From: Chryseobacterium sp. CY350
Lineage (GTDB): Bacteria; Bacteroidota; Bacteroidia; Flavobacteriales; Weeksellaceae
Assembly (NCBI RefSeq): GCF_027945075.1
Contig: NZ_CP116034.1
Span: 186,001 to 250,000 of the forward strand
Direction of reading: 5' to 3'
Length of the DNA: 64,000 bases
This document shows positions 18,908 through 43,737 of this stretch, piece after piece. The position numbers and the translations under genes are program-made. The notes beneath the pieces are model-generated. The model saw nothing but the letters and a program-made list of their open reading frames with translations, was not told the origin of the DNA and ran no database searches. Position 1 is the first letter of the stretch, and every line of letters starts with the position of its first letter.

Positions 18908-19009
18908 AATGTGCCCTTTTTCTTCATAAAATATAAGGAATCTCAGGTTAGTTATCAAATTGGTACTTAATCACTCACAATTGGTAGAATATGAAATTTT
19001 GCCTTGGCG

Positions 19010-19017
19010 TAAATTTG
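19010..19017 (+). promoter_or_regulatory. -7 box TAAATTTG
   Basis: A perfect TAnnTTTG 23 bp before the ATG of the MBL-fold gene at 19041, the likely promoter for the three-gene unit 19041-20692. Confidence 0.5.
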
Positions 19018-19040: not shown

Positions 19041-19808
19041 ATGAACATACAATTGATAAGAAACGCTACGATGGTTATCGATTATGCTGGAAAAAAAATG
19101 TTGGTTGATCCTATGTTTTCTGAGAAGGGTGAATTAGCTTCCGGACCAATGCCCGCAAAGGACTGGAATTGGAAAAGAAACCCGCTTTACGACCTCCCTA
19201 TTTCTGTTGAAGAAATCATAAAAGATATTGATTTTGTTTTTCTAACACATCTTCATTTTGATCATTGGGACAAAGCTGCAGAAAATGCATTGCCAAAAAA
19301 TATTAAAATTTTTGTTCAGGATGAAAACGACAAAAAAGCAATCAGTAAATTAGGATTTACCAATCTTGAGATTCTAGGTGAAGATTCAAACTTTGAAGGT
19401 GTCAAATTGAGCAGAACTAAAGCTCAACACGGCAAGGGGTTCATTCTTAAGCTTGCCGGGCAAGTGTGTGGAATGGTTTTACAACATCCAACTGAAGAAA
19501 CACTTTATATTGCTGCAGATACCGTTTGGTACGAGGAAGTTGAAAAAACAATAAATGCATATAAACCGGAAGTAATTATCGTAAACGGTGGTGATAATCG
19601 ATTCATTATTGGTGATCAGTTGATTATGAATAAAGAAGACATCTATCGCACCCACCAAGCTGCACCAAAATCAAAAATTGTGGTAATACATATGGAAGGT
19701 GTTTACCATAACACGCTATCAAGAAAAGAACTCAAAGAATTTGTTGATCATAAATCAATCAGCAATAGTATAATCATTCCCGAAGATGGAGAAAAAATAA
19801 TTTTGTAG
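19041..19808 (+). CDS. MBL-fold metallo-hydrolase, cytosolic
   Basis: A 255-residue metallo-beta-lactamase-fold enzyme. The metal motif H-L-H-F-D-H is at 70-75, with a further His in A-Q-H-G-K-G, an Asp in I-A-A-D-T and a His in V-I-H-M-E-G. The N-terminus I-R-N-A-T-M-V-I-D-Y-A-G-K-K is nearly the same as in the exported paralogue at 36885-37724, but this copy has no signal peptide. It resembles UlaG/RomA-like hydrolases. The next gene starts on a GTG sharing one base with this stop, so the two are coupled. Substrate unknown. Confidence 0.85.
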   Translation: MNIQLIRNATMVIDYAGKKMLVDPMFSEKGELASGPMPAKDWNWKRNPLYDLPISVEEIIKDIDFVFLTHLHFDHWDKAAENALPKNIKIFVQDENDKKAISKLGFTNLEILGEDSNFEGVKLSRTKAQHGKGFILKLAGQVCGMVLQHPTEETLYIAADTVWYEEVEKTINAYKPEVIIVNGGDNRFIIGDQLIMNKEDIYRTHQAAPKSKIVVIHMEGVYHNTLSRKELKEFVDHKSISNSIIIPEDGEKIIL

Positions 19809-20221
19809 TGGAAAATTTTATAGAACAAAACAAGCAATTGGCACGTGACTTTTATGCTGCTGTAAATAACGAAGATTACGACGCTGCAAGTAAATATTTG
19901 CATAAGGATTTTACTTTCTACGTTCAGGTTGATCATCCAATCCAAGGAGCTGAAGGATTTGTAGGATCAGAGAAGAAAAATTTTGATGCTTTTGGGGAGT
20001 TTTCTTTCCAAATTTTAGATCTTATTGCAGAAGGCAACAAAGTAGCAGTCTACATGTTGCACGAAGGAAAGCATAATAAAAATGCAATCATGGGACTTGA
20101 GCCAAAAGGAAATGATATTCGTTTTTCGCTCATGATGTGGCTGACTATTGAAGACGGTAAAATTATTGAAAAGCGTGCTCATTTCGACCGAACTGATATT
20201 AAAGAACAAGCAATTCGCTAA
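19808..20221 (+). CDS. SnoaL-like polyketide cyclase / NTF2 family protein
   Basis: A 137-residue SnoaL-like protein: A-R-D-F-Y-A-A-V-N-N-E-D-Y-D-A-A near the start, F-Y-V-Q-V-D-H-P-I-Q-G-A-E-G-F in the middle, and D-G-K-I-I-E-K-R-A-H-F-D at the end. The start is GTG at 19808, overlapping the previous TAG by one base. The first ATG in frame would remove most of the fold. It is the third SnoaL-like protein in the window and is translationally coupled to the MBL hydrolase, suggesting consecutive or protective reactions on one metabolite. Confidence 0.75.
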   Translation: MENFIEQNKQLARDFYAAVNNEDYDAASKYLHKDFTFYVQVDHPIQGAEGFVGSEKKNFDAFGEFSFQILDLIAEGNKVAVYMLHEGKHNKNAIMGLEPKGNDIRFSLMMWLTIEDGKIIEKRAHFDRTDIKEQAIR

Positions 20222-20278: not shown

Positions 20279-20692
20279 ATGCAATCAACTATCAAAGCCG
20301 TTTGGCAAGGAAGTTTTAAACAAGGAAACGGACAATTCGCAACCGAAAACTCAAAATTGAGCAACTCAGCATTCAGACCATCTTATGTGAAAAATGATGG
20401 CACTTTTACCAACCCGGAGGAGTTGCTGGCTGCTGCTCACGCATCGTGTTTTACAATGACGTTGAGTTATATTTTGGGAGAAAACGGATTTTCTGCCGAC
20501 CAACTTGAAACGAGTGTTTCACTAATCATCAGCAACAATGTGATCACGAATTCCAACTTATCATTACAAGCAAAAATCGCTGGTATTACGGAAGAAGAAT
20601 TTCGCAATCTTGCATCGAAAGCCAAAGAAATGTGCCCTGTTGGAAATGTATTAAAAGCTGAGAGTAGTTTAGAGGCAACTTTAATACTATAA
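20279..20692 (+). CDS. OsmC/Ohr family peroxiredoxin
   Basis: A 137-residue OsmC-type thiol peroxidase. The two reactive cysteines are in A-A-A-H-A-S-C-F-T-M (Cys57) and K-E-M-C-P-V-G-N (Cys119). The N-terminus V-W-Q-G-S-F-K-Q-G-N-G and the conserved N-P-E-E-L-L-A-A-A-H-A block support the OsmC subgroup rather than Ohr. Such enzymes reduce organic hydroperoxides using lipoylated or thiol donors. It lies 57 bp after the SnoaL-like gene and is probably part of the same stress unit. Confidence 0.88.
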   Translation: MQSTIKAVWQGSFKQGNGQFATENSKLSNSAFRPSYVKNDGTFTNPEELLAAAHASCFTMTLSYILGENGFSADQLETSVSLIISNNVITNSNLSLQAKIAGITEEEFRNLASKAKEMCPVGNVLKAESSLEATLIL

Positions 20693-33123: not shown

Positions 33124-33450
33124 TTAAGCAAGATGATTAAGTCCAAATGTGGCTAACTGCTCAATAATTGGTAATGTGCTTAAGCCTTTTTCAGACAATG
33201 TATATTCCACTTTCGGCGGAATTTGAGGAAAAGATTTTTTTTGAACCAGTTCGTGCTCTATCAATCTATTCAATTCCTGAATAAGCATTTTTTCACTGAT
33301 TCCCGGGATTTTCCGCTTTAATTCCCCGTACCTTACTTTCTCATCATTGATCTGGTATAAAATCAATAAAGTCCATTTTCCGCTTAAAAGCTGAAGAGAT
33401 TTTCGGACAGGACAGTTTTCGTCACAAATATTAATATCGCTTAAATTCAT
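33124..33450 (-). CDS. HxlR family transcriptional regulator
   Basis: A 108-residue winged-helix regulator with the defining core C-P-V-R-K-S-L-Q-L-L-S-G-K-W-T-L-L-I-L (13-31) and the wing region K-V-E-Y-T-L-S-E-K-G. Cys9 and Cys13 near the N-terminus may sense electrophiles or quinones, as in YodB and HypR. Inverted and direct motifs around its own promoter (33476-33516) suggest autoregulation. No divergent partner gene follows, so targets lie elsewhere or downstream. Confidence 0.87.
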   Translation of the reverse strand: MNLSDINICDENCPVRKSLQLLSGKWTLLILYQINDEKVRYGELKRKIPGISEKMLIQELNRLIEHELVQKKSFPQIPPKVEYTLSEKGLSTLPIIEQLATFGLNHLA

Positions 33451-33659: not shown

Positions 33660-34517
33660 TTACACCGTGCTTAGACTTTCCAGATATTCGGAGGTAGTCA
33701 TTCCTGTCTGCATTTTAAAAAATCTCATCATATGCCCCGGTTCAGCGTAGTTCAAATCAAAAGATATTTCCGAAACTGTTTTATTAGAGTAAACCAATCT
33801 ATCTTTTATTTCGGCCAATAAACGCTGTTTTAGAAGTTCTGTAGCAGTCACATTATATTGTTCCTTGACTGCCTTATTAAGGGTAATTCTGCTGATATTT
33901 AATAAAACGGTGTAATCTTCAATATTTTTTTTCTGACAGATGTGTTTCTCGAGAAGAGATTTATATTGTACTGCATAATTTTTATCGTCCTTCTCAATCA
34001 TTAGATCATTAGCAGAGGCATACCGTCGATTTATGGTTTGTAAAAGATAGTACAGGATCGACCTGATAATGTGAACGCTGTCTTTTTTTGTGTGCACAAG
34101 TTCAGTTTTGATTTCTACCAGAAATTCATTGAACCTTTTCATTTCAGAATCACTCACATTGAGAAGTAACTCATGGTTGAGCTGATAAAAAAACAGCATT
34201 TTGTGAGTGAAAAATTTATCAGCAAAGAATTCATTGAGAAAGTCTTCCCTGAATATTAAAGTTTTGAACTCAAGTCCATCTTGCTTAATTTTCCAGGCTC
34301 TCTTTTGAAAAGCTGAGATAAATACGATTGAGTTATCGTGAATATTAATTTTGGTATCATTAATATGTACTGTACCCTCAGCTTTCGAAAAAAAAACAAC
34401 CTCAAAATAGTCAGTATTATGTACATCGGTCTGCAGATAATTGATGGTGTCCTGATTCAGAATATTGATGAAAAAATCTACACCGCATTCTGTTTTGTGA
34501 AAATTGATTGTTTTCAT
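33660..34517 (-). CDS. AraC family transcriptional regulator (proposed master of the 34.6-39.5 kb regulon)
   Basis: A 285-residue regulator with an N-terminal sensor half and a C-terminal pair of AraC helix-turn-helix units: the first near V-L-L-N-I-S-R-I-T-L-N-K-A-V, the second V-S-E-I-S-F-D-L-N-Y-A-E-P-G-H-M-M-R-F-F. The intergenic region to the divergent cysteine-hydrolase gene holds TATCAAAA-N18-TTTTGATA-type dyad A. Three more copies (35430, 36747, 38632) precede genes further along, all at the same distance from -7 boxes. As the only regulator adjacent to this set it is the prime candidate to bind them. Confidence 0.85.
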   Translation of the reverse strand: MKTINFHKTECGVDFFINILNQDTINYLQTDVHNTDYFEVVFFSKAEGTVHINDTKINIHDNSIVFISAFQKRAWKIKQDGLEFKTLIFREDFLNEFFADKFFTHKMLFFYQLNHELLLNVSDSEMKRFNEFLVEIKTELVHTKKDSVHIIRSILYYLLQTINRRYASANDLMIEKDDKNYAVQYKSLLEKHICQKKNIEDYTVLLNISRITLNKAVKEQYNVTATELLKQRLLAEIKDRLVYSNKTVSEISFDLNYAEPGHMMRFFKMQTGMTTSEYLESLSTV

Positions 34518-34533
34518 AATAACTTTAAAGAAT

Positions 34534-34541
34534 CAAAGATA
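34534..34541 (-). promoter_or_regulatory. -7 box of the araC-type gene (TATCTTTG)
   Basis: On the minus strand TATCTTTG (34541 to 34534) lies 16 bp before the AraC gene's ATG, back to back with the cysteine-hydrolase promoter. Confidence 0.5.
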
Positions 34542-34616
34542 CAATGAAATAGTTATGATTAGAATGAAATGCGACTTAAACCGGATATTTCACTTTCCGA
34601 TATATCATAATTTCCC

Positions 34617-34682
34617 TTATCAAAATGACATTTTTTCGTAATCATTTGATATAGACACACATTCAATCAGGTGGTAATTTTG
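34617..34682 (+). promoter_or_regulatory. AraC-regulon promoter A
   Basis: TTATCAAAATG (34617-34627), ATTTGATAT (34644-34652) and the -7 box TAATTTTG (34675-34682). The first element starts 58 bp before the -7 box, as in promoters B, C and D. No TTG is present at the normal -33 position, consistent with dependence on an activator. Confidence 0.75.
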
Positions 34683-34703
34683 CGTTATAATAAATATCTA
34701 ATT

Positions 34704-35261
34704 ATGAGCAAACAAGCATTAATTATCATCGATATCCAGAATGAATATTTTGAAAACGGAAATCTCACATTGGTCAATCCTGTTGAGGCAAGTCTGAATG
34801 CTGGTAAAGTTCTTGAGCATTTTCGTGCAAAAAAGTTGCCTATTGCACACATTCAGCATCTATCGGCTGATCCCGAAGCATTGCCGATTTTTGTAGAGGG
34901 AACGCCTGGAGCTGAAATCCACGAAAATGTAAAACCCTTAAATGGAGAGCAAATCTTTCAAAAGTATTATCCAAACAGTTTTAGAGAAACTGGGCTAGGT
35001 GAATATTTGAAAGAAAACGGCGTGACAGAAGTAATTATCACAGGGATGATGACCCATATGTGTGTTGATGCTACTACTAGAGCAGCATTTGACTTTGGTT
35101 ACAAGTGTACCGTTATCGGTGATGCCTGCGCATCAAAAGATTTGGAAATCAACGGAAAGACGGTAAAGGCCGATGATGTACATCACGCTTTTTTAGCAGC
35201 ATTGGAATTTTTCTACGGCGAAATAAAAACTACGGACGAGTTTTTAAATGCTGTTTCTTAA
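34704..35261 (+). CDS. isochorismatase-like cysteine hydrolase
   Basis: From the ATG at 34704 the protein has 185 residues. The catalytic triad of cysteine hydrolases is visible: Asp10 in I-I-D-I-Q-N-E-Y-F, Lys87 in I-F-Q-K-Y-Y-P and Cys120 in M-M-T-H-M-C-V-D-A-T-T-R. An earlier in-frame ATG (34671) lies inside the promoter and was rejected. Family members hydrolyse amides such as nicotinamide or streptothricin. It is the first unit of the proposed AraC regulon and divergent from the regulator. A decayed relative exists at 1791-1994. Confidence 0.87.
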   Translation: MSKQALIIIDIQNEYFENGNLTLVNPVEASLNAGKVLEHFRAKKLPIAHIQHLSADPEALPIFVEGTPGAEIHENVKPLNGEQIFQKYYPNSFRETGLGEYLKENGVTEVIITGMMTHMCVDATTRAAFDFGYKCTVIGDACASKDLEINGKTVKADDVHHAFLAALEFFYGEIKTTDEFLNAVS

Positions 35262-35291
35262 TCAGTAGAAAACATTTTCTAACAATAGAAG

Positions 35292-35330
35292 AATATCCTT
35301 GACAATTAATTTGTTAAGGATATTTTTAAT
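35292..35330 (+). terminator. Rho-independent terminator
   Basis: AATATCCTT (35292-35300) pairs with AAGGATATT (35316-35324), with further pairing of ACAA and TTTGT inside, and is followed by T-rich sequence. It ends the cysteine-hydrolase unit. Confidence 0.65.
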
Positions 35331-35429
35331 TATACACGAAGGTCAATCCAAACAGCAGAGAACAACATGAAGCATAAAGTGTGACTCAATCAAGTAATAG
35401 ATTTCCGGAAAAATCATTTCTCTGTTGGT

Positions 35430-35495
35430 TTATCAAAATGGTATTTCTTATCTGTTTTTTGATATCTAACTAGTTTAAGAACCGGGGTAATTTTG
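35430..35495 (+). promoter_or_regulatory. AraC-regulon promoter B
   Basis: TTATCAAAATG (35430-35440), TTTTGATAT (35457-35465) and TAATTTTG (35488-35495). Here the dyad TATCAAAA-N18-TTTTGATA is perfect. Spacing to -7 is 58 bp, the same as the other three copies. Confidence 0.75.
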
Positions 35496-35520
35496 CACTA
35501 TAATTTAAAATCAAGAGGTT

Positions 35521-36633
35521 ATGAAAAATACAACAGCTGATAAAAATAAAAAAACTGCTTTTTCTCCACTGTTAAAACAAGGAAATGCACCTGTACCCCT
35601 ATCAATTCTTGACGTGTCTACTACAGGAAAAGGTCATTCTGCTATAGAAGCCATAGAAACGAGTATTAAGTTGGCAAAATATGCAGACCAGCGTGGATTT
35701 GGTCGTTATTGGGTAGCAGAGCATCATGGAATGCCAGCCGTTTCTACTTCGTCGCCCGCTGTATTGCTGTCCAGACTTATCGGAGAAACTCAGAATATAC
35801 GGTTGGGATCTGGCGGGATGATGTTACCTAACTTTCCTCCATTGGTCGTTGCTGAACAATTCGGGATGCTTCAGGCGATGGCTCCCGGACGTATAGATCT
35901 TGGAATTGGACGTGCTCCCGGAACCAATGGGCTTACAGCGTCAGCACTTCGCCGTGGTCATATAGGTGCTGAAGATTTTCCTGAGCAATTAGAGGAATTA
36001 CTGCATTTTCTTGAAGACGATTTTCCGGCAGGAAATAAGTACAAAGAAAAAGTTTTTGCTGTTCCGGGACCCGGACAGGATAAAGAAAACGGTATTGAAA
36101 GATCTTTTGACGCGCCATCTGTATGGCTTTTGGGATCATCGGGATACTCAGCTCAGTTGGCGGGTAAATTAGGTTTGCCTTTTGCATTTGCGGCACAGCT
36201 GGCTCCGGAGAATTTATCAATTGCTTTTGATCTATACAGGAAGAATTTCAGACCTTCAGAAATTCTGGATCATCCTTATACTATCGCATCATTTTCAGTA
36301 TTTGCGGCGGACAGTGAAGAAGAAGCAAGAATCCAGACGCATTCTTTTTCGCATAGTATGCTTCGGATGATGAAAGGTGAATCGTACGTCATCCCTTCAC
36401 CTGAAGAATTAAAAAATTACAACTATTCTGAATATGAAAGCTATGTGTTGGACAGCTGGAATCAAAAAATGATTCAGGGAACTGCCGATCAGGTCGTCGC
36501 CGGACTTAATGAGTTTCAAAAGATATCGGGAGCTGATGAACTGATGATCGCTAATTTGGGATATTCGCCGGAAGGTATTTTACATTCTGCTGCATTGATA
36601 GCAGATGCTTACAATATGCCTAATATTTATTAG
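35521..36633 (+). CDS. LLM class flavin-dependent oxidoreductase (luciferase-like)
   Basis: A 370-residue bacterial-luciferase-like monooxygenase. Conserved blocks are P-L-S-I-L-D (26-31), the F-G-R-Y-W-V-A-E-H-H-G-M-P strand, I-R-L-G-S-G-G-M-M-L-P-N and A-P-G-R-I-D-L-G-I-G-R-A-P-G. These fit the MsnO8/YvbT-like branch using reduced FMN, often against alkanesulfonates or aldehydes. It is single under promoter B of the AraC regulon, between the cysteine hydrolase and the secreted MBL hydrolase. Substrate unknown, but co-regulation suggests degradation of one compound. Confidence 0.88.
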   Translation: MKNTTADKNKKTAFSPLLKQGNAPVPLSILDVSTTGKGHSAIEAIETSIKLAKYADQRGFGRYWVAEHHGMPAVSTSSPAVLLSRLIGETQNIRLGSGGMMLPNFPPLVVAEQFGMLQAMAPGRIDLGIGRAPGTNGLTASALRRGHIGAEDFPEQLEELLHFLEDDFPAGNKYKEKVFAVPGPGQDKENGIERSFDAPSVWLLGSSGYSAQLAGKLGLPFAFAAQLAPENLSIAFDLYRKNFRPSEILDHPYTIASFSVFAADSEEEARIQTHSFSHSMLRMMKGESYVIPSPEELKNYNYSEYESYVLDSWNQKMIQGTADQVVAGLNEFQKISGADELMIANLGYSPEGILHSAALIADAYNMPNIY

Positions 36634-36746
36634 GAGAATATTTACATATAAAAGTTAAATTGATTCAAAGAGATTAAAAAAGCATCATCTCGAATCTCAT
36701 TCATTCAACATAATTAAAAGCGGTGAAATTTGGAAATATAAGCAGG

Positions 36747-36812
36747 TTATCAAAATGGCAGTAAATCGCATCATTTAGATACTGTAAGGATATGTTCTTA
36801 GTAAGACCTTTG
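36747..36812 (+). promoter_or_regulatory. AraC-regulon promoter C
   Basis: TTATCAAAATG (36747-36757), TTTAGATAC (36774-36782) and GACCTTTG (36805-36812) as a weakened -7 box. Offsets equal those of the other copies: the second element at +27 and the -7 box at +58. Confidence 0.7.
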
Positions 36813-36884
36813 CAGTGTAATCATTTCTGTAAAATCGTCGCTGAAAGAATTGAGATTATTAATAAAATATAAAAAAAGAATATT

Positions 36885-37724
36885 ATGAAAAAAGTAATTG
36901 TAGCATTTGCACTGACACTGTCATCTGTCTTTTCATTCGGACAGACAAAATCTGATACAAAACCCACTGTCCAGTTAGTTAGAAATGCGACCCTGGTCAT
37001 TGACTACGCAGGAAAAAAAATATTGGTTGATCCTATGCTGTCTCCTAAAGGAGCCATTGATTCATGGGCGGGTATTCAAAAAAATCCTACGGTTGAACTG
37101 ACAATGCCTGTAGAAGAAATTGTGAAGGACATTGATCTCGTTATTGTAACCCATACTCACGAAGATCATTTTGACAAGCCTGCAAGCAGCACCCTAAATA
37201 AATCTGTAGAACTGATCATGCAACCTGCCGATAAAGAATTTTTCAAAAAAGAAGGCTTTATCAATGCTACTGTTGTAGAAGGTCAAAAAGTATGGAACGG
37301 CATCACTATAAACCGTGTGGAAGGAAAACATGGTTCCGGTAAGGTGTTAGAAATGATGGGTAAAACATCAGGATTTGTTTTACAAGCTAAAAACCAACCT
37401 ACGGTTTACATTGTAGGAGATACGATCTGGAATGAAGATATTAAAAAAGATATTGAAACATTCAAACCCGATTATATTATTGTTAATTCTGGGGGAGCGC
37501 TGATGAAAGACTTTAGTGATACACCGATCATTATGAATGAAGTGCAGACGATGGCTTTGATAGCTGCCAGTGGAAAAGCAAAAGTAATAGCAGTTCACAT
37601 GGATGCATTGGATCATTGCTTTACGACCAGAGCCATTCTGAAAAAGAAAGCTTCAGAATTGAAAATCGGACAAGATAAATTGATCATTCCCGAAGACGGA
37701 GAAAAACTGATTCTATCTCTTTAG
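36885..37724 (+). CDS. MBL-fold metallo-hydrolase, exported
   Basis: A 279-residue hydrolase with signal peptide (1-19, ending F-S-F-G) and the metal motif H-T-H-E-D-H (90-95). The mature start L-V-R-N-A-T-L-V-I-D-Y-A-G-K-K-I-L-V-D-P is almost the same as in the cytosolic paralogue at 19041-19808, so the two are duplicates sent to different compartments. Later ligands are in E-G-K-H-G-S-G, V-G-D-T-I-W and A-V-H-M-D-A. Controlled from promoter C; terminated by the hairpin at 37755-37787. Confidence 0.86.
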   Translation: MKKVIVAFALTLSSVFSFGQTKSDTKPTVQLVRNATLVIDYAGKKILVDPMLSPKGAIDSWAGIQKNPTVELTMPVEEIVKDIDLVIVTHTHEDHFDKPASSTLNKSVELIMQPADKEFFKKEGFINATVVEGQKVWNGITINRVEGKHGSGKVLEMMGKTSGFVLQAKNQPTVYIVGDTIWNEDIKKDIETFKPDYIIVNSGGALMKDFSDTPIIMNEVQTMALIAASGKAKVIAVHMDALDHCFTTRAILKKKASELKIGQDKLIIPEDGEKLILSL

Positions 37725-37754
37725 TCGTACAGCATAAAATTGATGAATACAAGA

Positions 37755-37787
37755 GACAAAACCTACTTTAATTGAGTAGGTTTTGTC
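37755..37787. terminator. bidirectional terminator
   Basis: GACAAAACCTACT (37755-37767) and AGTAGGTTTTGTC (37775-37787) pair perfectly over 13 bp with flanking T and A tracts. It lies between the convergent MBL and lipoprotein genes. Confidence 0.85.
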
Positions 37788-37801
37788 TTTTAATATTTTG
37801 G

Positions 37802-38374
37802 TTATTTTACGACTTTGATCAAGCTGATATATTTCAATCCACATTCAGCAAACTTTTCATAATCATTCATTGCGTTGCCATAGTTTTGAATCATAATTCC
37901 ATTTTTATCCAATGATCCCTGAATCTCGTCAGGAAGAGAAAGATTCTTGTCAATGGCATTGCCCTCTGAATCTACCGCACCAATGTTTTTACTCCATTTT
38001 AAATTTTTTAGCGTAACAAAATAGCCCTCTTTTTTCTCATCCAATGTTAAAGTAGCGAAGTCTGTACGTGTCTGATTATCTGTTATTAAATCATATTTTA
38101 ATTTTCCTTCCGAATAATATAATTTCAGATCCATTTTACAACTGGCATTGTCTTTAGATTGATACAGTCCTTCGACAGCAAAAAGCAGATCATTATTTTC
38201 AGTAATATTTTTTTGAGAAGAATCACGTTGTAAGCTACCATTTTGTTTTGTAAGCGAATCAGGTAAGTTTGCATTAGCCCTTGCTGTATTTTCAACTTGT
38301 TTATCGCCTTTTTTAATGCAAGATTGTATTGCGAGTGCAAAAATGAGCGTAAAGATAATCGTGGTTTTTTTCAT
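37802..38374 (-). CDS. hypothetical lipoprotein
   Basis: A 190-residue protein with lipobox A-I-Q-S-C (Cys19) after a short hydrophobic leader. A polar linker rich in Asn, Gln and Ser (about 20-60) leads to a compact beta-rich domain with two Cys (C-K-M-D-L-K-L and A-E-C-G-L-K-Y) that could form a disulfide. No family is recognised. It lies tail to tail with the MBL gene and is separated from the next unit by 416 bp. It may be a stress-induced surface lipoprotein, but nothing proves it. Confidence 0.6.
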   Translation of the reverse strand: MKKTTIIFTLIFALAIQSCIKKGDKQVENTARANANLPDSLTKQNGSLQRDSSQKNITENNDLLFAVEGLYQSKDNASCKMDLKLYYSEGKLKYDLITDNQTRTDFATLTLDEKKEGYFVTLKNLKWSKNIGAVDSEGNAIDKNLSLPDEIQGSLDKNGIMIQNYGNAMNDYEKFAECGLKYISLIKVVK

Positions 38375-38790
38375 TTATAAAAGATGTATTGTGAAGATTT
38401 GTTTTATTTAATGGACATTTACGAACTAAGGTTAATGTATTGAAAGTAATGCGGAAATTTTTATCAGATAAATAGTTACGGAGATTCAATGATGAAAGAT
38501 ACAGCCAAAAAGCGAGAAATAAATTTTAATATTAAAAGATTCTCAACTATTTTGATATTTAGAAAAGAAGGCCTTTTTAAAGTTCATTATAATAATAAAA
38601 TAGGATCGAAAGAGTGTAGAAAAGATGATACTTATCAAAATGATATTTAAATAAGCGATTTTGGTATATCATAATCAATCCGTGAATTCTATTTTTGACT
38701 TAGATACACGTTTTACCAGAAATGGATATAAATTTTAGTAGATACTCAAAGTGATGAATTTTGAAAAATAGGTGAAGAATTGATAAAAAT
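38375..38790. other. intergenic region carrying regulon promoter D
   Basis: This AT-rich 416-bp stretch holds promoter D (38632-38697) and an extra half-site-like TTTTGATAT about 70 bp upstream of it. Otherwise it shows no reading frame or structured element. Confidence 0.5.
38632..38697 (+). promoter_or_regulatory. AraC-regulon promoter D
   Basis: TTATCAAAATG (38632-38642), TTTTGGTAT (38659-38667) and TATTTTTG (38690-38697). Offsets +27 and +58 match promoters A, B and C exactly. It precedes the HAD phosphatase gene by 93 bp. Confidence 0.72.
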
Positions 38791-39471
38791 ATGAAAAACA
38801 GTAAATTAGATCTCAAGGCGATCATTTTTGATATGGATGGGGTTTTGATCAATACAGAACCGCAATATGAAAATTTTTGGAGAACCGCTGCCAAGAAATA
38901 TAATGTTTACTTCGAAGGCTTTGAAAAACAGATCCGCGGAATGACAGTAAAAAAATTATTTGAAGGACAATTCAGAGATATTGGCGAGGTCGAGAAAAAG
39001 AATCTTTTAAAAGAATTTAAAGCATTTGAAGATCAGATGTCTTTTCCTGAAATTCCGGGAATTGCTACATTGTTACCGCATTTAAAAGAATCAAAAATAA
39101 AATTAGGATTGGTTACAAGCTCGGATCTGGAAAAATTAACCAGAGTCATCACACAAAAGAACTTAGATCTGTATTTTGATGTGATGATTACAGCCAACGA
39201 TTTTGTTGACGGTAAACCATCGCCTGAATGCTATTTAAAGGCTGCAGATAAGTTAGGCGTTGAGCCCGTAAATTGTATTGTATTTGAAGATTCTTTCGCG
39301 GGTATTTCCGCAGCGAGATCCGCAGGAATGGTCGTGGTGGGAGTTTCTTCTTCACATTCAAAAAGTGAATTAATGAGTGAATGTAATAATGTGGTCGGAG
39401 ATTTCCAGAGAATAGGATTAAAGGAAATAATTGATTTTCATGAATCTGCAGAACTAGAATCTAAAGTCTAA
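38791..39471 (+). CDS. HAD family hydrolase (beta-phosphoglucomutase-like)
   Basis: A 226-residue HAD-IA phosphatase. Motif I D-M-D-G-V (14-18) follows I-I-F; motif II has the serine in V-T-S-S-D-L-E; motif III/IV lies in G-K-P-S-P-E-C-Y and V-F-E-D-S-F-A-G-I-S-A-A-R-S-A-G. The cap between residues 20 and 90 is the small helical type of phosphoglucomutase-like enzymes. It probably dephosphorylates a sugar phosphate or a toxic side product. The last unit controlled by an AraC-regulon promoter (D), it sits 56 bp before a Crp/Fnr regulator. Confidence 0.85.
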   Translation: MKNSKLDLKAIIFDMDGVLINTEPQYENFWRTAAKKYNVYFEGFEKQIRGMTVKKLFEGQFRDIGEVEKKNLLKEFKAFEDQMSFPEIPGIATLLPHLKESKIKLGLVTSSDLEKLTRVITQKNLDLYFDVMITANDFVDGKPSPECYLKAADKLGVEPVNCIVFEDSFAGISAARSAGMVVVGVSSSHSKSELMSECNNVVGDFQRIGLKEIIDFHESAELESKV

Positions 39472-39527: not shown

Positions 39528-40157
39528 ATGGAAAACTCGGTATTGGCTTCGGAATTTAAATCATCAAGTGATTTGGTGGAAAAATTATATCAAAACGGCT
39601 TTATCAAAAAGTATCAGCAAGGTGATGTTATTTTAGACGAAAATGCATCAATCCGTGCAATACCCATCGTGATGAAAGGAATGATGAAGGTCATCCGGAC
39701 TGAGCAAGACGGTAGGGAAATTCTACTGTACTACATCAAGGCCGGCGAAAGCTGTATTATGTCTTTCCTTGGCGGGATGCACCATGAGAAAAGCATCCTG
39801 AAAGCAGAAATTGAAGAGGAATCCGAGATCTTGTTTTTGCCTGTAGAAAAAGCATCTCTTTTTATGAAGGACTATCCGGAATGGGTAGATTATATTTTCC
39901 GGCTCTATCACAAGCGTTTTGAAGAATTACTGGACATCATCAATGCCATCGCTTTCAAAAAAGTGGATGAAAGATTACTACAACTGCTTGAGAAAAAGTC
40001 TGAAATTTCTCATTCTAAAACTGTTGTCACCACACACGAGCAACTTGCCAATGAGCTTGGTACAGCTAGAGTAGTGGTTTCAAGACTCCTTAAACAACTC
40101 GAAGATGCCGGTAAATTAAAACTGGGAAGAAATAAAATAGTTCTTTCAGATTCCTAA
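39528..40157 (+). CDS. Crp/Fnr family transcriptional regulator of the sulfur cluster
   Basis: A 209-residue regulator with cyclic-nucleotide-type barrel (G-D-V-I-L-D-E-N-A-S, R-E-I-L-L-Y-Y-I-K-A-G-E-S-C-I-M-S) and a C-terminal HTH with T-H-E-Q-L-A-N-E-L-G-T-A-R-V-V-V-S-R-L-L-K. A Cys in the G-E-S-C-I-M motif may sense persulfides. It heads the cluster of sulfite/thiosulfate transporters, a persulfide dioxygenase-like enzyme and rhodaneses. Two promoters downstream share a 19-base element at class II spacing, so it is the likely activator. Confidence 0.86.
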   Translation: MENSVLASEFKSSSDLVEKLYQNGFIKKYQQGDVILDENASIRAIPIVMKGMMKVIRTEQDGREILLYYIKAGESCIMSFLGGMHHEKSILKAEIEEESEILFLPVEKASLFMKDYPEWVDYIFRLYHKRFEELLDIINAIAFKKVDERLLQLLEKKSEISHSKTVVTTHEQLANELGTARVVVSRLLKQLEDAGKLKLGRNKIVLSDS

Positions 40158-40165
40158 TAACTTTC

Positions 40166-40214
40166 CTTATGTAACAAAAGTAGCGGTGCAGCAATTCTAA
40201 TATTTCCATTTTTG
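40166..40214 (+). promoter_or_regulatory. sulfur-cluster promoter 1 with Crp/Fnr-type site
   Basis: CTTATGTAACAAAAGTAGC (40166-40184) contains the dyad GTAAC-N4-GTAGC. The -7 box CATTTTTG is at 40207-40214, 41 bp after the element starts. The same 19 bases and the same spacing occur at 41049. Confidence 0.7.
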
Positions 40215-40232
40215 CGTTATTAAAGTTAAAGT

Positions 40233-41024
40233 ATGGAAATTTTTGGATATATCGCATCTGTTTTTATCGGGATTTCATTGGGATTGCTGGGTGGCGGAGG
40301 AAGTATTCTTACTGTTCCGGTTTTGGTTTATCTTTTTGGGATTGATGTTTTTCTTGCGACAGAATATTCCCTTTTTATTGTCGGAGTCAGTAGTTTGGTT
40401 GGCTCTTTTTCTTATTTTAAAAATGGTTTGGTCAACGTAAGAACAGCGTTGGTTTTTGGAATCCCATCAGTTATTTCTATTTTCCTTACAAGAAATTTTC
40501 TCTTGCCTCTCATTCCTGATCAGGTATTTTCTTTGGGTGGTTTTCTGCTAACCAGGAATCTGCTTTTATTATTAATTTTTGCTGCTTTAATGATTATCGC
40601 CTCCTATAAAATGATTCAAAAAAATAGGGACTCGAAAGTGAAAAATATCGCATCCAAAAACAAGACAGTTCTCGCAGCAGGACAAGGTTCAGCTGTTGGA
40701 ATCATTACAGGTTTACTTGGAGCAGGCGGTGGATTTTTAATTATTCCTGCTTTGGTCAATTTGTTGAAAACGCCAATGAAAGTCGCCATTGGAACTTCAT
40801 TGGTCATTGTCTCGTTCAATTCTCTGATTGGATTTTTTTCTTCGATGAACAGTGTTGATATTGATTGGAATTTTTTAGCGACTATTTCAGCAATTTCCAT
40901 AATAGGAATTGTTATAGGTACTGAATTATCAAAGATAATTAACGGTAAAAAACTTAAGCCGATCTTTGGATATTTCATTCTCATAATGGGAATTTACATT
41001 ATCATTAAAGAAGTTTTATTTTAA
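40233..41024 (+). CDS. TSUP/TauE-SafE family sulfite exporter-like protein
   Basis: A 263-residue membrane protein with about eight segments in two repeated halves. Each half begins with a glycine-rich motif, G-L-L-G-G-G-G-S-I-L (near 18-27) and G-L-L-G-A-G-G-G-F-L (mid-protein), the hallmark of TSUP transporters that move sulfite, sulfonates or thiosulfate. It is the first structural gene after the Crp/Fnr regulator, driven by promoter 1. Export of sulfite made by the persulfide dioxygenase-like enzyme downstream is the likely role. Confidence 0.86.
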   Translation: MEIFGYIASVFIGISLGLLGGGGSILTVPVLVYLFGIDVFLATEYSLFIVGVSSLVGSFSYFKNGLVNVRTALVFGIPSVISIFLTRNFLLPLIPDQVFSLGGFLLTRNLLLLLIFAALMIIASYKMIQKNRDSKVKNIASKNKTVLAAGQGSAVGIITGLLGAGGGFLIIPALVNLLKTPMKVAIGTSLVIVSFNSLIGFFSSMNSVDIDWNFLATISAISIIGIVIGTELSKIINGKKLKPIFGYFILIMGIYIIIKEVLF

Positions 41025-41048
41025 ATTAATAAAACAGAAGATAAAATT

Positions 41049-41097
41049 CTTATGTAACAAAAGTAGCTGTAGAAAAGGATGAGAGCATCGAAATTTG
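41049..41097 (+). promoter_or_regulatory. sulfur-cluster promoter 2 with Crp/Fnr-type site
   Basis: CTTATGTAACAAAAGTAGC (41049-41067) repeats the element of promoter 1 without a mismatch. The -7 box GAAATTTG (41090-41097) again lies 41 bp from the element start, although the first base of the box is not T. Confidence 0.7.
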
Positions 41098-41176
41098 TAC
41101 TTCATAAAGAATCGGTTAAGAATCGTCAATACATACTTTCAAAAAAAGTTTCAAAAATAAATTAAAAAAATAAGTA

Positions 41177-41740
41177 ATGATAGAAATTATAAAAGAACCC
41201 TGGCCTTGGTATGTTGCAGGTCCTTTGGTAGGTCTCACTGTCCCAATTTTACTGATCTTAGGTAACAAATCTTTCGGAATCAGCTCGTCTTTACGGCATA
41301 TCTGTGCAGCCTGCGTTCCAGCCAATATCAATTTTTTCCAATACGACTGGAAAAAGGAATTATGGAATTTGTTTTTTGTCTTCGGAATTTTATTAGGTGG
41401 ATTGCTGGCTACTCAATTTCTTATGAATCCTGAAGAAATTACCGTAAACCCAAATCTTAAAGCTGAATTGAGCGGTTATGGAATTACCGATTACGGCAAT
41501 CTTATTCCTCTTCAGCTGATGAATTTTGCAAATCTATTGAATTTGAAAGGTTTTATCATTATGGTTATGGGTGGTTTTTTGGTAGGTTTCGGAACCCGTT
41601 ATGCAGGCGGCTGTACAAGTGGTCACGCTATAATGGGGCTGTCCAATCTTCAATGGCCATCTCTGGTTGCGACGATTTGTTTTATGACAGGTGGCTTTTT
41701 AATGGCGAATGTTATTTTACCCCTTATTCTTTCACTTTAA
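41177..41740 (+). CDS. YeeE/YedE family thiosulfate transporter half
   Basis: A 187-residue membrane protein with five or so segments. The signature [16 protein letters not shown] near residue 145 holds the conserved Cys that hands sulfur across the membrane in YeeE proteins. A second Cys pair in I-C-A-A-C-V-P-A-N lies near 45-53. The next gene is the second half, so a two-subunit channel is likely. Its promoter (41049-41097) shares the element of the TSUP promoter. Confidence 0.87.
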
Positions 41741-41752
41741 AATTTAATTATT

Positions 41753-42235
41753 ATGGAAAAAGACAATAATGCACTTCAGCAGAATAGTGTTTGTGTCAAT
41801 GAAAATCCTTCGCAGATTCATTGGTATCATCATATCAGATATCTCATTGTAGGAATTTTATTCGGAATTGTTTTCGTCAAGTCTGAAGTGATCAGCTGGT
41901 TCAGAATTCAGGAAATGTTCCGCCTGCAGTCATTTCATATGTTTGGCATTATCGCAAGTGCAATAGTTACAGGAATGATCTCAATTTGGGTGATCAAGAA
42001 ATTCAATATCAAAACCCTCGATGGAGAACCTATTTCTATTGCGCCAAAAAAATTCAATAAAGGTCAAATCTATGGCGGGCTCATTTTTGGTTTTGGTTGG
42101 GCAATTACCGGCGCTTGTCCTGGACCGTTGTTCGCGCAGATCGGGACAGGCTCATTGGTTGTGATTGTTACGCTGATAAGCGCTGTTTTCGGAACGTGGG
42201 TCTATGGATATTTTAGAGAAAAATTGCCGCATTAA
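41753..42235 (+). CDS. YeeE/YedE family thiosulfate transporter half (partner)
   Basis: A 160-residue membrane protein with about four segments and the second-half signature G-F-G-W-A-I-T-G-A-C-P-G-P-L-F-A-Q-I-G near residue 118-136, including the conserved Cys. It begins 13 bp after its partner and is probably co-translated with it. Split YeeE halves such as this are common in Bacteroidota and usually neighbour an MBL-rhodanese protein, as here. Confidence 0.87.
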   Translation: MEKDNNALQQNSVCVNENPSQIHWYHHIRYLIVGILFGIVFVKSEVISWFRIQEMFRLQSFHMFGIIASAIVTGMISIWVIKKFNIKTLDGEPISIAPKKFNKGQIYGGLIFGFGWAITGACPGPLFAQIGTGSLVVIVTLISAVFGTWVYGYFREKLPH

Positions 42236-42336
42236 AGGCTATCGACAGAATTTTTGGCGAGATAAAAGTTTCGGTTTAAAAAAAGATTATTCTGGAATTT
42301 GGTTTAAATAAATTAAGTTTAATAAAAATAAAAGTT

Positions 42337-43737
42337 ATGTTTTTTCAGCATATTTATGATAAAAGCCTTGCGCAGGCAAGTTACCTGATCGGTTGTCAGG
42401 CAAAAGGAGAAGCGATTGTTATCGATGCAAAAAGAGATATTGATACCTACCTTCAGATAGCAAAAGAAAATAATCTTAAAATAACACATATCACAGAAAC
42501 CCATATTCACGCAGATTTTCTGTCCGGCTCACGTGAACTGGCCGCAGTGACTGGTGCTGATCTTTATCTTTCTGATGAAGGCGGTGATGATTGGCAATAT
42601 CAGTTTCCACATATCGGTTTAAGGAACGGCGATGAAATAAAAGTTGGAAACCTGACTTTAAAAGTAATTCATACACCCGGACATACACCTGAAAGTATCA
42701 GTTTTTTGCTGACCGATCATCCGGCTACAGATGAGCCTGTTATGATATTCACCGGAGATTTTGTTTTTGTAGGCGATGTCGGAAGACCGGATCTTTTGGA
42801 AAAAGCAGCCGGAATTGAAGGAACTCAGGAAAAGGGAGCGAAAGAAATGTATCAGTCGGTACAGGATTTTAGTATACTTCCTTCATATATTCAGGTTTGG
42901 CCGGGACACGGTGCCGGTTCTGCTTGCGGGAAATCTCTTGGAGCAGTACCGAGTTCTACCATTGGCTATGAAAAGATCCGTAATTGGGCATTTCAATATA
43001 AAGATGATGAAGATGGTTTCATTGATTATCTTTTGGAAGGACAGCCTGAGCCTCCAAAATATTTTTCAATGATGAAAAAACTCAATAAAATGGATAGACC
43101 TTTACTGACAGAAGTTCCTCAGCAGAGAAAACTTTCCAAAGAAGAATTTCTCAAAGCATATTCTGAAGATGTGACCGTCATTGATACAAGAGATAAAGTG
43201 GATTTTGCAAACGGTTTTATTCCTAAAAGTATCAATATTCAGGGTAATAATTCTTTTTCGACGTGGATGGGATGGATTTTAGATTACTCTCAACCATTTA
43301 TTCTGATTGCAGAACAAGATAAGATGGATGTTCTTACAAGAAAACTCATGCGAATCGGAATGGATCAGATGATGGGTTTTGTGGAAGATGTAAATGATTT
43401 TGGTTTAGATTTGCTGACCTCTGATATTATTGATATTAATGAGTTCAAAACGTATCTGAAACGAGACGATATACAGATTGTAGATGTGAGGAACAAAACA
43501 GAGTATGAAGATGCGCACATAGAAAACGCAGACAATGTTTTTGTCGGTACTTTGGAGGACCATCTTTATGAAATTTCTAAAGATAAAACGGTGATCATTC
43601 ATTGTCAGAGTGGTGATAGGGCAGCGATCGCATATTCACTTCTAAGAAAAAACGGTTTTGAAAGAGTGAAAAATTTTTCTGGCGGAATGAGAGAATGGTT
43701 GGCTACAAATGGTGCAACTTCTATCTGTAAGATTTGA
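42337..43737 (+). CDS. MBL-fold / rhodanese fusion, persulfide dioxygenase-like
   Basis: A 466-residue enzyme. The N-terminal MBL domain has T-H-I-H-A-D-F-L-S-G (55-64) and H-T-P-G-H-T-P-E-S, the iron site of ETHE1/CstB-type persulfide dioxygenases. Two rhodanese domains follow. The first (about 275-360) has an Asp/Glu region F-I-L-I-A-E-Q-D in place of the Cys loop and is probably inactive. The second has I-H-C-Q-S-G-D-R-A-A with the catalytic Cys. Such enzymes oxidise persulfide to sulfite and thiosulfate, fitting the neighbouring sulfite and thiosulfate transporters. Confidence 0.87.
   Translation: MFFQHIYDKSLAQASYLIGCQAKGEAIVIDAKRDIDTYLQIAKENNLKITHITETHIHADFLSGSRELAAVTGADLYLSDEGGDDWQYQFPHIGLRNGDEIKVGNLTLKVIHTPGHTPESISFLLTDHPATDEPVMIFTGDFVFVGDVGRPDLLEKAAGIEGTQEKGAKEMYQSVQDFSILPSYIQVWPGHGAGSACGKSLGAVPSSTIGYEKIRNWAFQYKDDEDGFIDYLLEGQPEPPKYFSMMKKLNKMDRPLLTEVPQQRKLSKEEFLKAYSEDVTVIDTRDKVDFANGFIPKSINIQGNNSFSTWMGWILDYSQPFILIAEQDKMDVLTRKLMRIGMDQMMGFVEDVNDFGLDLLTSDIIDINEFKTYLKRDDIQIVDVRNKTEYEDAHIENADNVFVGTLEDHLYEISKDKTVIIHCQSGDRAAIAYSLLRKNGFERVKNFSGGMREWLATNGATSICKI

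Follow-up and report, generated by a model that had tools for sequence, protein, structure and literature searches.

Regulators of the AraC/XylS family commonly, though not universally, bind two direct-repeat half-sites that are placed 21 bp apart beside the core promoter. At araI1/I2 of E. coli the site spans about 36-38 bp, contains two half-sites offset by 21 bp and ends near -35, while RhaS and RhaR are reported to bind inverted half-sites in sites of about 50 bp. RclR, the AraC-family reactive-chlorine regulator, has a key cysteine in its N-terminal part. In Bacteroidota, for which to our knowledge few regulons have been mapped, sigma-A promoters carry a TTG element at -33. For the -7 box, a passage of PMC9723704 gives the consensus TAnnTTTG. 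For Pseudomonas, a passage of PMC12903958 describes that isothiocyanate raises saxA and saxB.

We compared these systems with a locus of Chryseobacterium sp. CY350, located in a 64-kb window (the whole stretch of DNA that was analysed). The sequence TTATCAAAATG occurs in the window at 34617, 35430, 36747 and 38632, i.e. four times compared to a mean of 0.24 and a maximum of 2 in 100 shuffled sequences. These positions had been given in the earlier note and were confirmed, as were the accompanying elements at all four sites: a second element starting at +27 from the start of TTATCAAAATG (ATTTGATAT, TTTTGATAT, TTTAGATAC and TTTTGGTAT at sites A, B, C and D) and a -7 box at +58 (TAATTTTG at A and B, GACCTTTG at C, TATTTTTG at D). 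The promoters, previously counted as four, number five: an overlooked site at 18952 (E) has the form TTATCAAATTGGTAC..CAATTGGTAG with the -7 box TAAATTTG at +58. All of these features lie on the + strand. Operators A (TTATCAAAATG...ATTTGATAT, 34617..34652), B (35430..35465), C (36747..36782) and D (38632..38667) were assigned from motif count and geometry; operator E (18952..18987) contains two exact copies of AATTGGTA in direct orientation, offset by 21 bp. The corresponding -7 boxes are found at 34675..34682 (A), 35488..35495 (B), 36805..36812 (C, a variant common at other sites too), 38690..38697 (D) and 19010..19017 (E). The pattern TATCAAAA-N18-TTTTGATA is matched perfectly at B and with one mismatch each at A, C and D.

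The earlier note had also found no TTG at the -33 place of promoters A and B. This was borne out by reading and extends to all four sites A-D. Across 78 non-redundant sites, each of columns 37-56 contains at most 0.20 bit, such that no -33 element is present. The -7 box in turn has the Bacteroidota sigma-A form: 134 of the 142 sites carry [TG]AnnTTTG starting at +58 or +57. At seven of the other eight the box deviates from the strict form by one letter, and the eighth site (L156 10242) is a stray.

We consider the following mechanism, read from the sequence, to be probable as a whole. The AraC-family protein encoded at 33660-34517 would act as a local activator that binds a 36-bp operator, TTATCAAAATGGTAG-N13-TTTGGTAG, the end of which coincides with the start of the missing -33 element. 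It would recruit RNA polymerase to the lone sigma-A -7 box and switch on at least five transcription units, which comprise a cysteine hydrolase, an MsnO8-type flavin monooxygenase, two SaxA-like hydrolases and a HAD phosphatase. SnoaL and OsmC proteins would follow behind one SaxA-like hydrolase, and a MATE efflux pump would be added in relatives. The most likely role of the target set is the detoxification of isothiocyanates or comparable electrophiles that react with thiols, with Cys11 of the regulator as the probable sensor. Activation had already been thought probable for these promoters, and the analysis supports this expectation.

Regarding the operator, the boxes had been described as an inverted repeat with 18 bp spacing. 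The N18 pattern held with 0-1 mismatches, but the inverted layout could not be regarded as settled, since a direct layout fits about equally: the right box matches the first left box in inverted orientation and the second left box in direct orientation, the downstream box being also a direct repeat of TGGTAG at an offset of 21 bp. The most likely arrangement, which we favour with moderate confidence, would be a strong two-box half-site followed by a weaker direct-repeat half-site 21 bp downstream, as at araI1/I2. In both systems the site measures about 36-38 bp and stops close to -35, its half-sites are offset by 21 bp and its position is that of an activator; here, in contrast, the promoter has a -7 box of the Bacteroidota type and lacks a -33 element, the second half-site is reduced to the downstream box, and there is no link to arabinose.

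It is rather unlikely that the operator is instead a true inverted repeat, on which a dimer would contact TATCAAAA and TTTTGATA head to head in the manner of RhaS/RhaR. Overall similarity speaks for such a layout: the profile similarity of the right box over 17 columns is 6.4 for the inverted and 5.5 for the direct comparison, and 9-column letter counts at 78 sites place the inverted match ahead in 52, the direct match in 19, with a tie in 7. In addition, the column pair 16-21, which belongs to the inverted model and thus lowers the odds for the direct reading, is associated across the 78 sites (p = 0.001, uncorrected for relatedness and number of pairs). However, while T-A (24), the most frequent combination of this pair, is complementary, C-C (11) and G-G (6) are not. 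The arm centres of the inverted repeat are 26 bp apart, which by calculation corresponds to 2.5 helical turns, compared to 2.0 turns for direct boxes at 21 bp, and A is absent from column 36 at all 78 sites, despite a T in column 1 at 74 of them. At loci L207 and L213 the right box covaries with the second left box, GGCAT being found in both direct boxes, while the first left box stays TATCA. One of the two L217 sites has TTGGTAA in both direct boxes; at the second site the changed box is not repeated. Associations were also seen for two pairs of the direct model, 15-36 (p = 0.012) and 9-30 (p = 0.049), again over 78 sites and uncorrected for relatedness and number of pairs. Because most columns hardly vary, covariation across these sites is mostly uninformative. 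The evidence is thus mixed: by counts the inverted layout is about as good, while most of the sites of some diverged regulators point to a direct repeat, as do the helical phase and the layout usual for AraC proteins, which TGGTAG/TGGTAG fits. One of the folds matched by the regulator is the RhaR regulatory domain (see below), but RhaS/RhaR sites of about 50 bp compare with 36 bp here, where the half-sites are at least as likely to be direct repeats.

The genes behind the five sites, all on the + strand, were assigned by sequence searches. Site A is followed by a cysteine hydrolase of the isochorismatase family (34704..35261; PF00857, E = 7.8e-37), the most frequent first gene after a site (61 of 142). 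Site B precedes a luciferase-like monooxygenase (LLM) of the MsnO8 subfamily (35521..36633; NCBIfam TIGR03558, 369 bits at a cut-off of 167) and site D a HAD-family phosphatase (38791..39471; Pfam HAD_2, E = 7.2e-34). The target of C is a SaxA-like metallo-hydrolase (MBL) with a putative export signal recognized by eye (36885..37724; phmmer, PDB 6brm SaxA, E = 5.7e-49), in which the HTHEDH and later metal-ligand regions align with SaxA. Site E is followed by a second SaxA-like metallo-hydrolase (19041..19808; phmmer, 6brm, E = 9.3e-58), a SnoaL-like protein (19808..20221; PF07366, E = 2e-27) and an OsmC-family protein (20279..20692; PF02566, E = 1.2e-18). A relative of the latter has a site of its own in two related loci (L073 6049, L075 8622), and relatives also have a MATE efflux pump as a target. 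Another target of 300 aa, present in five loci, looked Sir2-like by eye but was left without a name, as no Pfam family matched it. Genes for HxlR, DJ-1/PfpI and NmrA-like proteins are found in the neighbourhood. The gene set agrees with the degradation or detoxification role that the earlier note had proposed; a link to isothiocyanates was absent from that note.

By sequence, both MBLs of the window are SaxA-type hydrolases, SaxA (6brm) being the best match of solved structure for each of them. This resemblance suggests a sax-type regulon for the detoxification of electrophiles or isothiocyanates, in which the MBLs would hydrolyse isothiocyanates. As in the Pseudomonas sax genes (saxCAB/F/D/G), a hydrolase of the SaxA kind is combined with a transcription regulator of its own, and efflux is represented in both systems, here by the MATE pump of relatives. 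Unlike in Pseudomonas, several separate promoters carry one operator, an MsnO8 monooxygenase, HAD, OsmC and SnoaL proteins are included, and the MBL at 36885 looks exported; the sax genes mentioned in the literature passages considered do not include LLM, HAD, OsmC or SnoaL. Within the genus, close MBLs (77-100% identity) occur in 6 of 173 genomes, all of which have the AraC, with the gene broken in one (G119). Three AraC genomes (G043, G165, G011) have no close MBL, and of the 164 genomes without this AraC, 67 encode SaxA-like proteins at 34-40% identity. SaxA likeness alone therefore does not prove the substrate. The same regulator and sites could serve a general response to electrophiles, oxidants or xenobiotics in which isothiocyanates are at most one inducer. 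OsmC, flavin monooxygenase, SnoaL, HAD and MATE among the targets would suit such a role, as would the nearby HxlR, DJ-1/PfpI and NmrA-like genes and the occurrence of the regulator on Bacteroidales plasmids and in genera that we take to be marine. We nevertheless regard it as unlikely, given that an MBL gene is the target at 41 of 142 sites, which places it among the two most frequent targets, and that SaxA is the nearest solved relative of both MBLs in the window.

The AraC gene had been named as the only adjacent regulator. Yet HxlR (33124-33450) and Crp-type (39528-40157) genes are also near, and a TetR and a second AraC gene lie near the fifth site. Despite the presence of these four within the island, it is very improbable that one of them binds the sites instead. 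In the own genome (4.09 Mb) the full geometry with at most one mismatch is found at these five sites only, with 0 matches for the reversed control. Within the genus the pattern occurs in all 9 genomes carrying an orthologue of the AraC, while 9 of the 164 genomes without it have a single stray match each; the reversed pattern gave 4 matches in 173 genomes. A -7 box accompanies 22 of 24 regulon matches but 0 of 12 strays. When 80 loci were chosen by AraC relatives alone, 79 had the site, covering 21 named genera; in the one siteless locus (L150) the contig begins 131 bases before the AraC match. Paralogous AraC loci (31-34% family) had 0 sites in the 21 loci fetched out of 34 other matching genomes, which ruled out this family as owner of the site. 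The AraC and the site are thus inherited together, and a single AraC-type regulator acting on several promoters of fixed geometry, as first proposed, is supported. Scattered sites with variable -7 spacing in relatives would have contradicted this proposal, but the outcome was in its favour: starting from 116 distinct exact left arms irrespective of spacing, the right box is at column 30 in 91, and the -7 box is at +58 in 84, at +57 in 12 and at all other offsets in 4. In the AraC loci, scores of 16, 15 and 14 were obtained for 91, 23 and 20 sites on the forward compared to 0, 2 and 10 on the reversed sequence. The chance that accident or a repeated element explains the sites is negligible: the exact left arm does occur by itself, e.g. 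within MBL genes (by eye), but the -7 spacing is fixed, spacers and flanks vary among sites, and the shuffles, genus scan, own-genome control of 0 and spacing-free count reject a chance origin.

The regulator itself (33660..34517, - strand, 285 aa) possesses the C-terminal two-HTH domain of the AraC/XylS family, with HTH_18 (E = 5.1e-16) and HTH_AraC (E = 2.2e-7) both above the Pfam cut-offs. Its structure model (pLDDT 86) is closest to ToxT/Rns/CsvR, RhaR and AraC, and 52 Foldseek matches at E <= 0.001 indicate an N-terminal cupin-like regulatory domain of the AraC/RhaR/ToxT kind. ToxT matched over the full length at 3.8e-10, with a TM of merely 0.41, and the RhaR regulatory domain with a TM of 0.72 by target length. 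Close to the N-terminus, Cys11 is kept in 81 of 81 orthologues, including all 42 without a match to the search peptide, which itself contains this cysteine, whereas 21 of 21 paralogues have Tyr there. In 11 of the 81 orthologues it is the sole cysteine. Cys11 is thus a candidate and probably the sensor, which would react as a single thiol. In RclR, likewise an AraC-type protein, the key cysteine also lies in the N-terminal part; its targets differ, and the regulator described here has one invariant cysteine.

The same regulator and operator recur widely in the phylum, including on Bacteroidales plasmids of human gut bacteria. Among the titles and abstract openings searched, which covered part of the matches, we found no description of this regulon. 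For electrophile defence in Bacteroidota it supplies a regulator, a list of targets and an operator that can be computed. Tentatively, it may represent a phylum-wide mustard-oil sensor in bacteria from soil, plants, the sea and the gut, Bacteroidales plasmids included, in which covalent reaction of isothiocyanate with Cys11 would switch on an AraC activator that drives SaxA-like hydrolases. If so, the plasmid copies could be induced by isothiocyanates from brassicas in the diet. Mustard-oil sensing by plant- and gut-associated Bacteroidota, the use of one cysteine as sensor by an AraC protein and the action of an AraC activator at Bacteroidota promoters without a -33 element can now be tested. 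On a Pantoea plasmid from rapeseed seed, a SaxA-like MBL and a cysteine hydrolase are found together with a different regulator.

The regulator is an AraC-family protein encoded at 33660-34517 (minus strand), and the 36 bp element upstream of the -7 box is taken as its operator. The earlier note had placed four TTATCAAAATG sites at 34617, 35430, 36747 and 38632, each accompanied by a second element and a -7 box that start at +27 and +58, respectively, from the first base of the left arm. All four sites were found at these positions (4 matches compared with a mean of 0.24 after shuffling of the window) and both further elements were present at each. When the full geometry (left arm, A at 14, GRTA and -7 box) was scanned over the 4.09 Mb genome allowing up to three mismatches, seven matches were obtained: four are perfect, that at 18952 has a single mismatch and two have three. 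The reversed pattern yielded none in the same scan. This fifth site, E, lies upstream of a second SaxA-like metallo-hydrolase (MBL) gene, SnoaL and OsmC. The AraC regulon is real and conserved, such that the original observation is confirmed and enlarged.

Among 173 genomes of the genus, 43 matched the AraC at E ≤ 1e-40. Nine of them carry an orthologue: the own genome (100%), seven others (100, 95, 94, 87, 57, 56 and 56% identity) and a broken ninth with pieces of 86 and 91%. In genome G119 (contig 1, 859885-860734) the orthologue is interrupted by a stop with the operators still alongside. The remaining 34 genomes hold a 31-34% family, with the exception of G081, where a partial match reaches 49%. 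A search for TTATCAAAATGNNAN17GRTA gave 36 matches, spread over 18 of the 173 genomes (reversed control: 4). Of these matches 24 fall in the nine orthologue genomes, close to araC or upstream of a regulon gene, including one on a separate contig (G105, contig 112) that precedes a cysteine hydrolase close to the contig end; the 12 strays are divided between genomes without orthologue (nine) and elsewhere in orthologue genomes (three). The scan of relatives proposed in the earlier note thereby separated the two groups: a strict -7 box accompanies 22 of the 24 regulon matches, compared with 0 of the 12 strays. Searches of the family (296 genomes) and the order (395 genomes) added four and three orthologue genomes, respectively, with identities of 52-57% and a site with its -7 box at +58 in all seven.

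An alignment of twelve AraC orthologues served as the query against named genomes, and the best 80 of the 161 loci retrieved were kept. By record title they come from 21 Bacteroidota genera, in addition to unclassified Flavobacteriaceae and a MAG with the title Massilibacillus; ten apparently belong to genomes already surveyed. In 79 of these 80 loci a site reaches a score of 15 or more out of 16; the only exception (L150) is truncated by the contig end. Site totals at scores of 16, 15 and 14 were 91, 23 and 20, compared with 0, 2 and 10 for the reversed sequence. A check of 30 whole genomes gave exact site matches in 28 (control: 0), and in the two exceptions (genomes of L123 and L161) the sites differ by one letter. 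Combining the window with loci L072-L081 and L089-L168 provided 142 sites, some counted twice via two routes, of which 119 have [TG]AnnTTTG at +58, 15 at +57 and 8 at neither. The first gene behind the site encodes a cysteine hydrolase (61), MBL (41), luciferase-like monooxygenase (15), MATE efflux pump (8), HAD phosphatase (6), OsmC (3) or an unnamed 300-aa protein (5), with one stray and two unassigned. The 300-aa protein (L144, 11021-11920, and four similar loci) appears Sir2-like by eye and matches nothing in Pfam. In a Dyadobacter genome (L177), divergent operators at 1535 (minus) and 1605 (plus), 69 bp apart, precede a MATE pump and a cysteine hydrolase.

In published work the sigma-A -7 box, TAnnTTTG, occupies positions -12 to -5 (PMC9723704), by which the operator would span about -70 to -35. 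Since columns 37-56 hold at most 0.20 bit each (78 non-redundant sites), the promoters lack a -33 element and would be expected to depend on an activator.

Diverged relatives (AraC 43%, SaxA-like MBL 46.6%) are carried by 24 Bacteroidales plasmid records. In the one that was read, a Bacteroides xylanisolvens plasmid (L207, 4956-8299), site and spacing are kept. A radical SAM mobile pair comes next behind the same operator, and the gene downstream of the site at L213, the locus of another diverged regulator, resembles radical SAM by eye.

The left 15 bases of the operator comprise two boxes, TATCA and TGGTAG, that are near-palindromic as a pair, and for this reason the right box TTTGRTAK matches the first as an inverted repeat and the second as a direct repeat. 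The inverted repeat described in the earlier note stands as a fit, being ahead in a nine-column comparison, while all six core letters match in direct orientation at 20 of 78 sites and in inverted orientation at 16. Column pairs 16-21 (inverted model) and 15-36 (direct model) are associated, both uncorrected. These counts leave the orientation unsettled with a slight lean to inverted. We nevertheless somewhat favour the right box as a direct repeat of the second left box, because 21 bp correspond to two helical turns and because repeats recur in a few lineages: at site E AATTGGTA occurs twice, 21 bp apart, at L207 and L213 both direct boxes read GGCAT with TATCA unaltered, and at one site of L217, not at its other, both read TTGGTAA.

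The MBLs at 36885 and 19041 match the isothiocyanate hydrolase SaxA (PDB 6brm) with E=5.7e-49 and E=9.3e-58, with aligned metal-ligand regions; the only other solved structure matched was the uncharacterised hydrolase 3rpc. SaxA releases an amine and O=C=S (PMC7036374), and the Pseudomonas sax genes, a saxCAB/F/D/G set (PMC8836197), encode pumps, SaxA, the regulator SaxC and the uncharacterised SaxB, of which saxA and saxB, not saxC, are slightly raised by 4MSOB-isothiocyanate (PMC12903958). On a Pantoea agglomerans plasmid from rapeseed seed (L206), two SaxA-like MBLs, a LysO exporter and a cysteine hydrolase lie together; its regulator is GlxA-like (DJ-1 plus HTH, by eye), and the Bacteroidota operator had no match there at a score of at least 13. 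The SaxA matches, the aligned ligand regions, this literature and the pairing of MBL and cysteine hydrolase on the plasmid together make isothiocyanate detoxification the probable function of the regulon, as judged from homology. Caution is advised by a close MBL in only 6 of 9 AraC-bearing genus genomes and by SaxA-like proteins (34-40%) in 67 of 164 without the AraC.

All 81 AraC orthologues have Cys11, where 21 of 21 paralogues have Tyr. Of the two peptides used as queries in the phylum scan, one contained Cys11; 42 of the 81 orthologues do not match this peptide, and all 42 still have the residue. Cys11 is the sole cysteine of 11 of the 81 orthologues, such that an intrachain disulphide cannot be required. 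In a structure model with a pLDDT of 86, residues 10-13 score below 50, a sign that a flexible arm may precede the cupin strands. The arm of E. coli AraC lies over the ligand pocket. As a speculative sensor mechanism, an electrophile would be covalently captured at the Cys11 arm.

An HxlR-type regulator (33124-33450) adjoins the AraC; its closest models, below cut-off, are the redox-sensing RrpA/RrpB. Within 39528-43737, a Crp-type regulator lies directly behind the HAD gene, together with, by eye, TauE/YeeE-type transporters and a persulfide dioxygenase-like MBL-rhodanese fusion. This sulfur-handling cluster could process sulfur freed from isothiocyanates.
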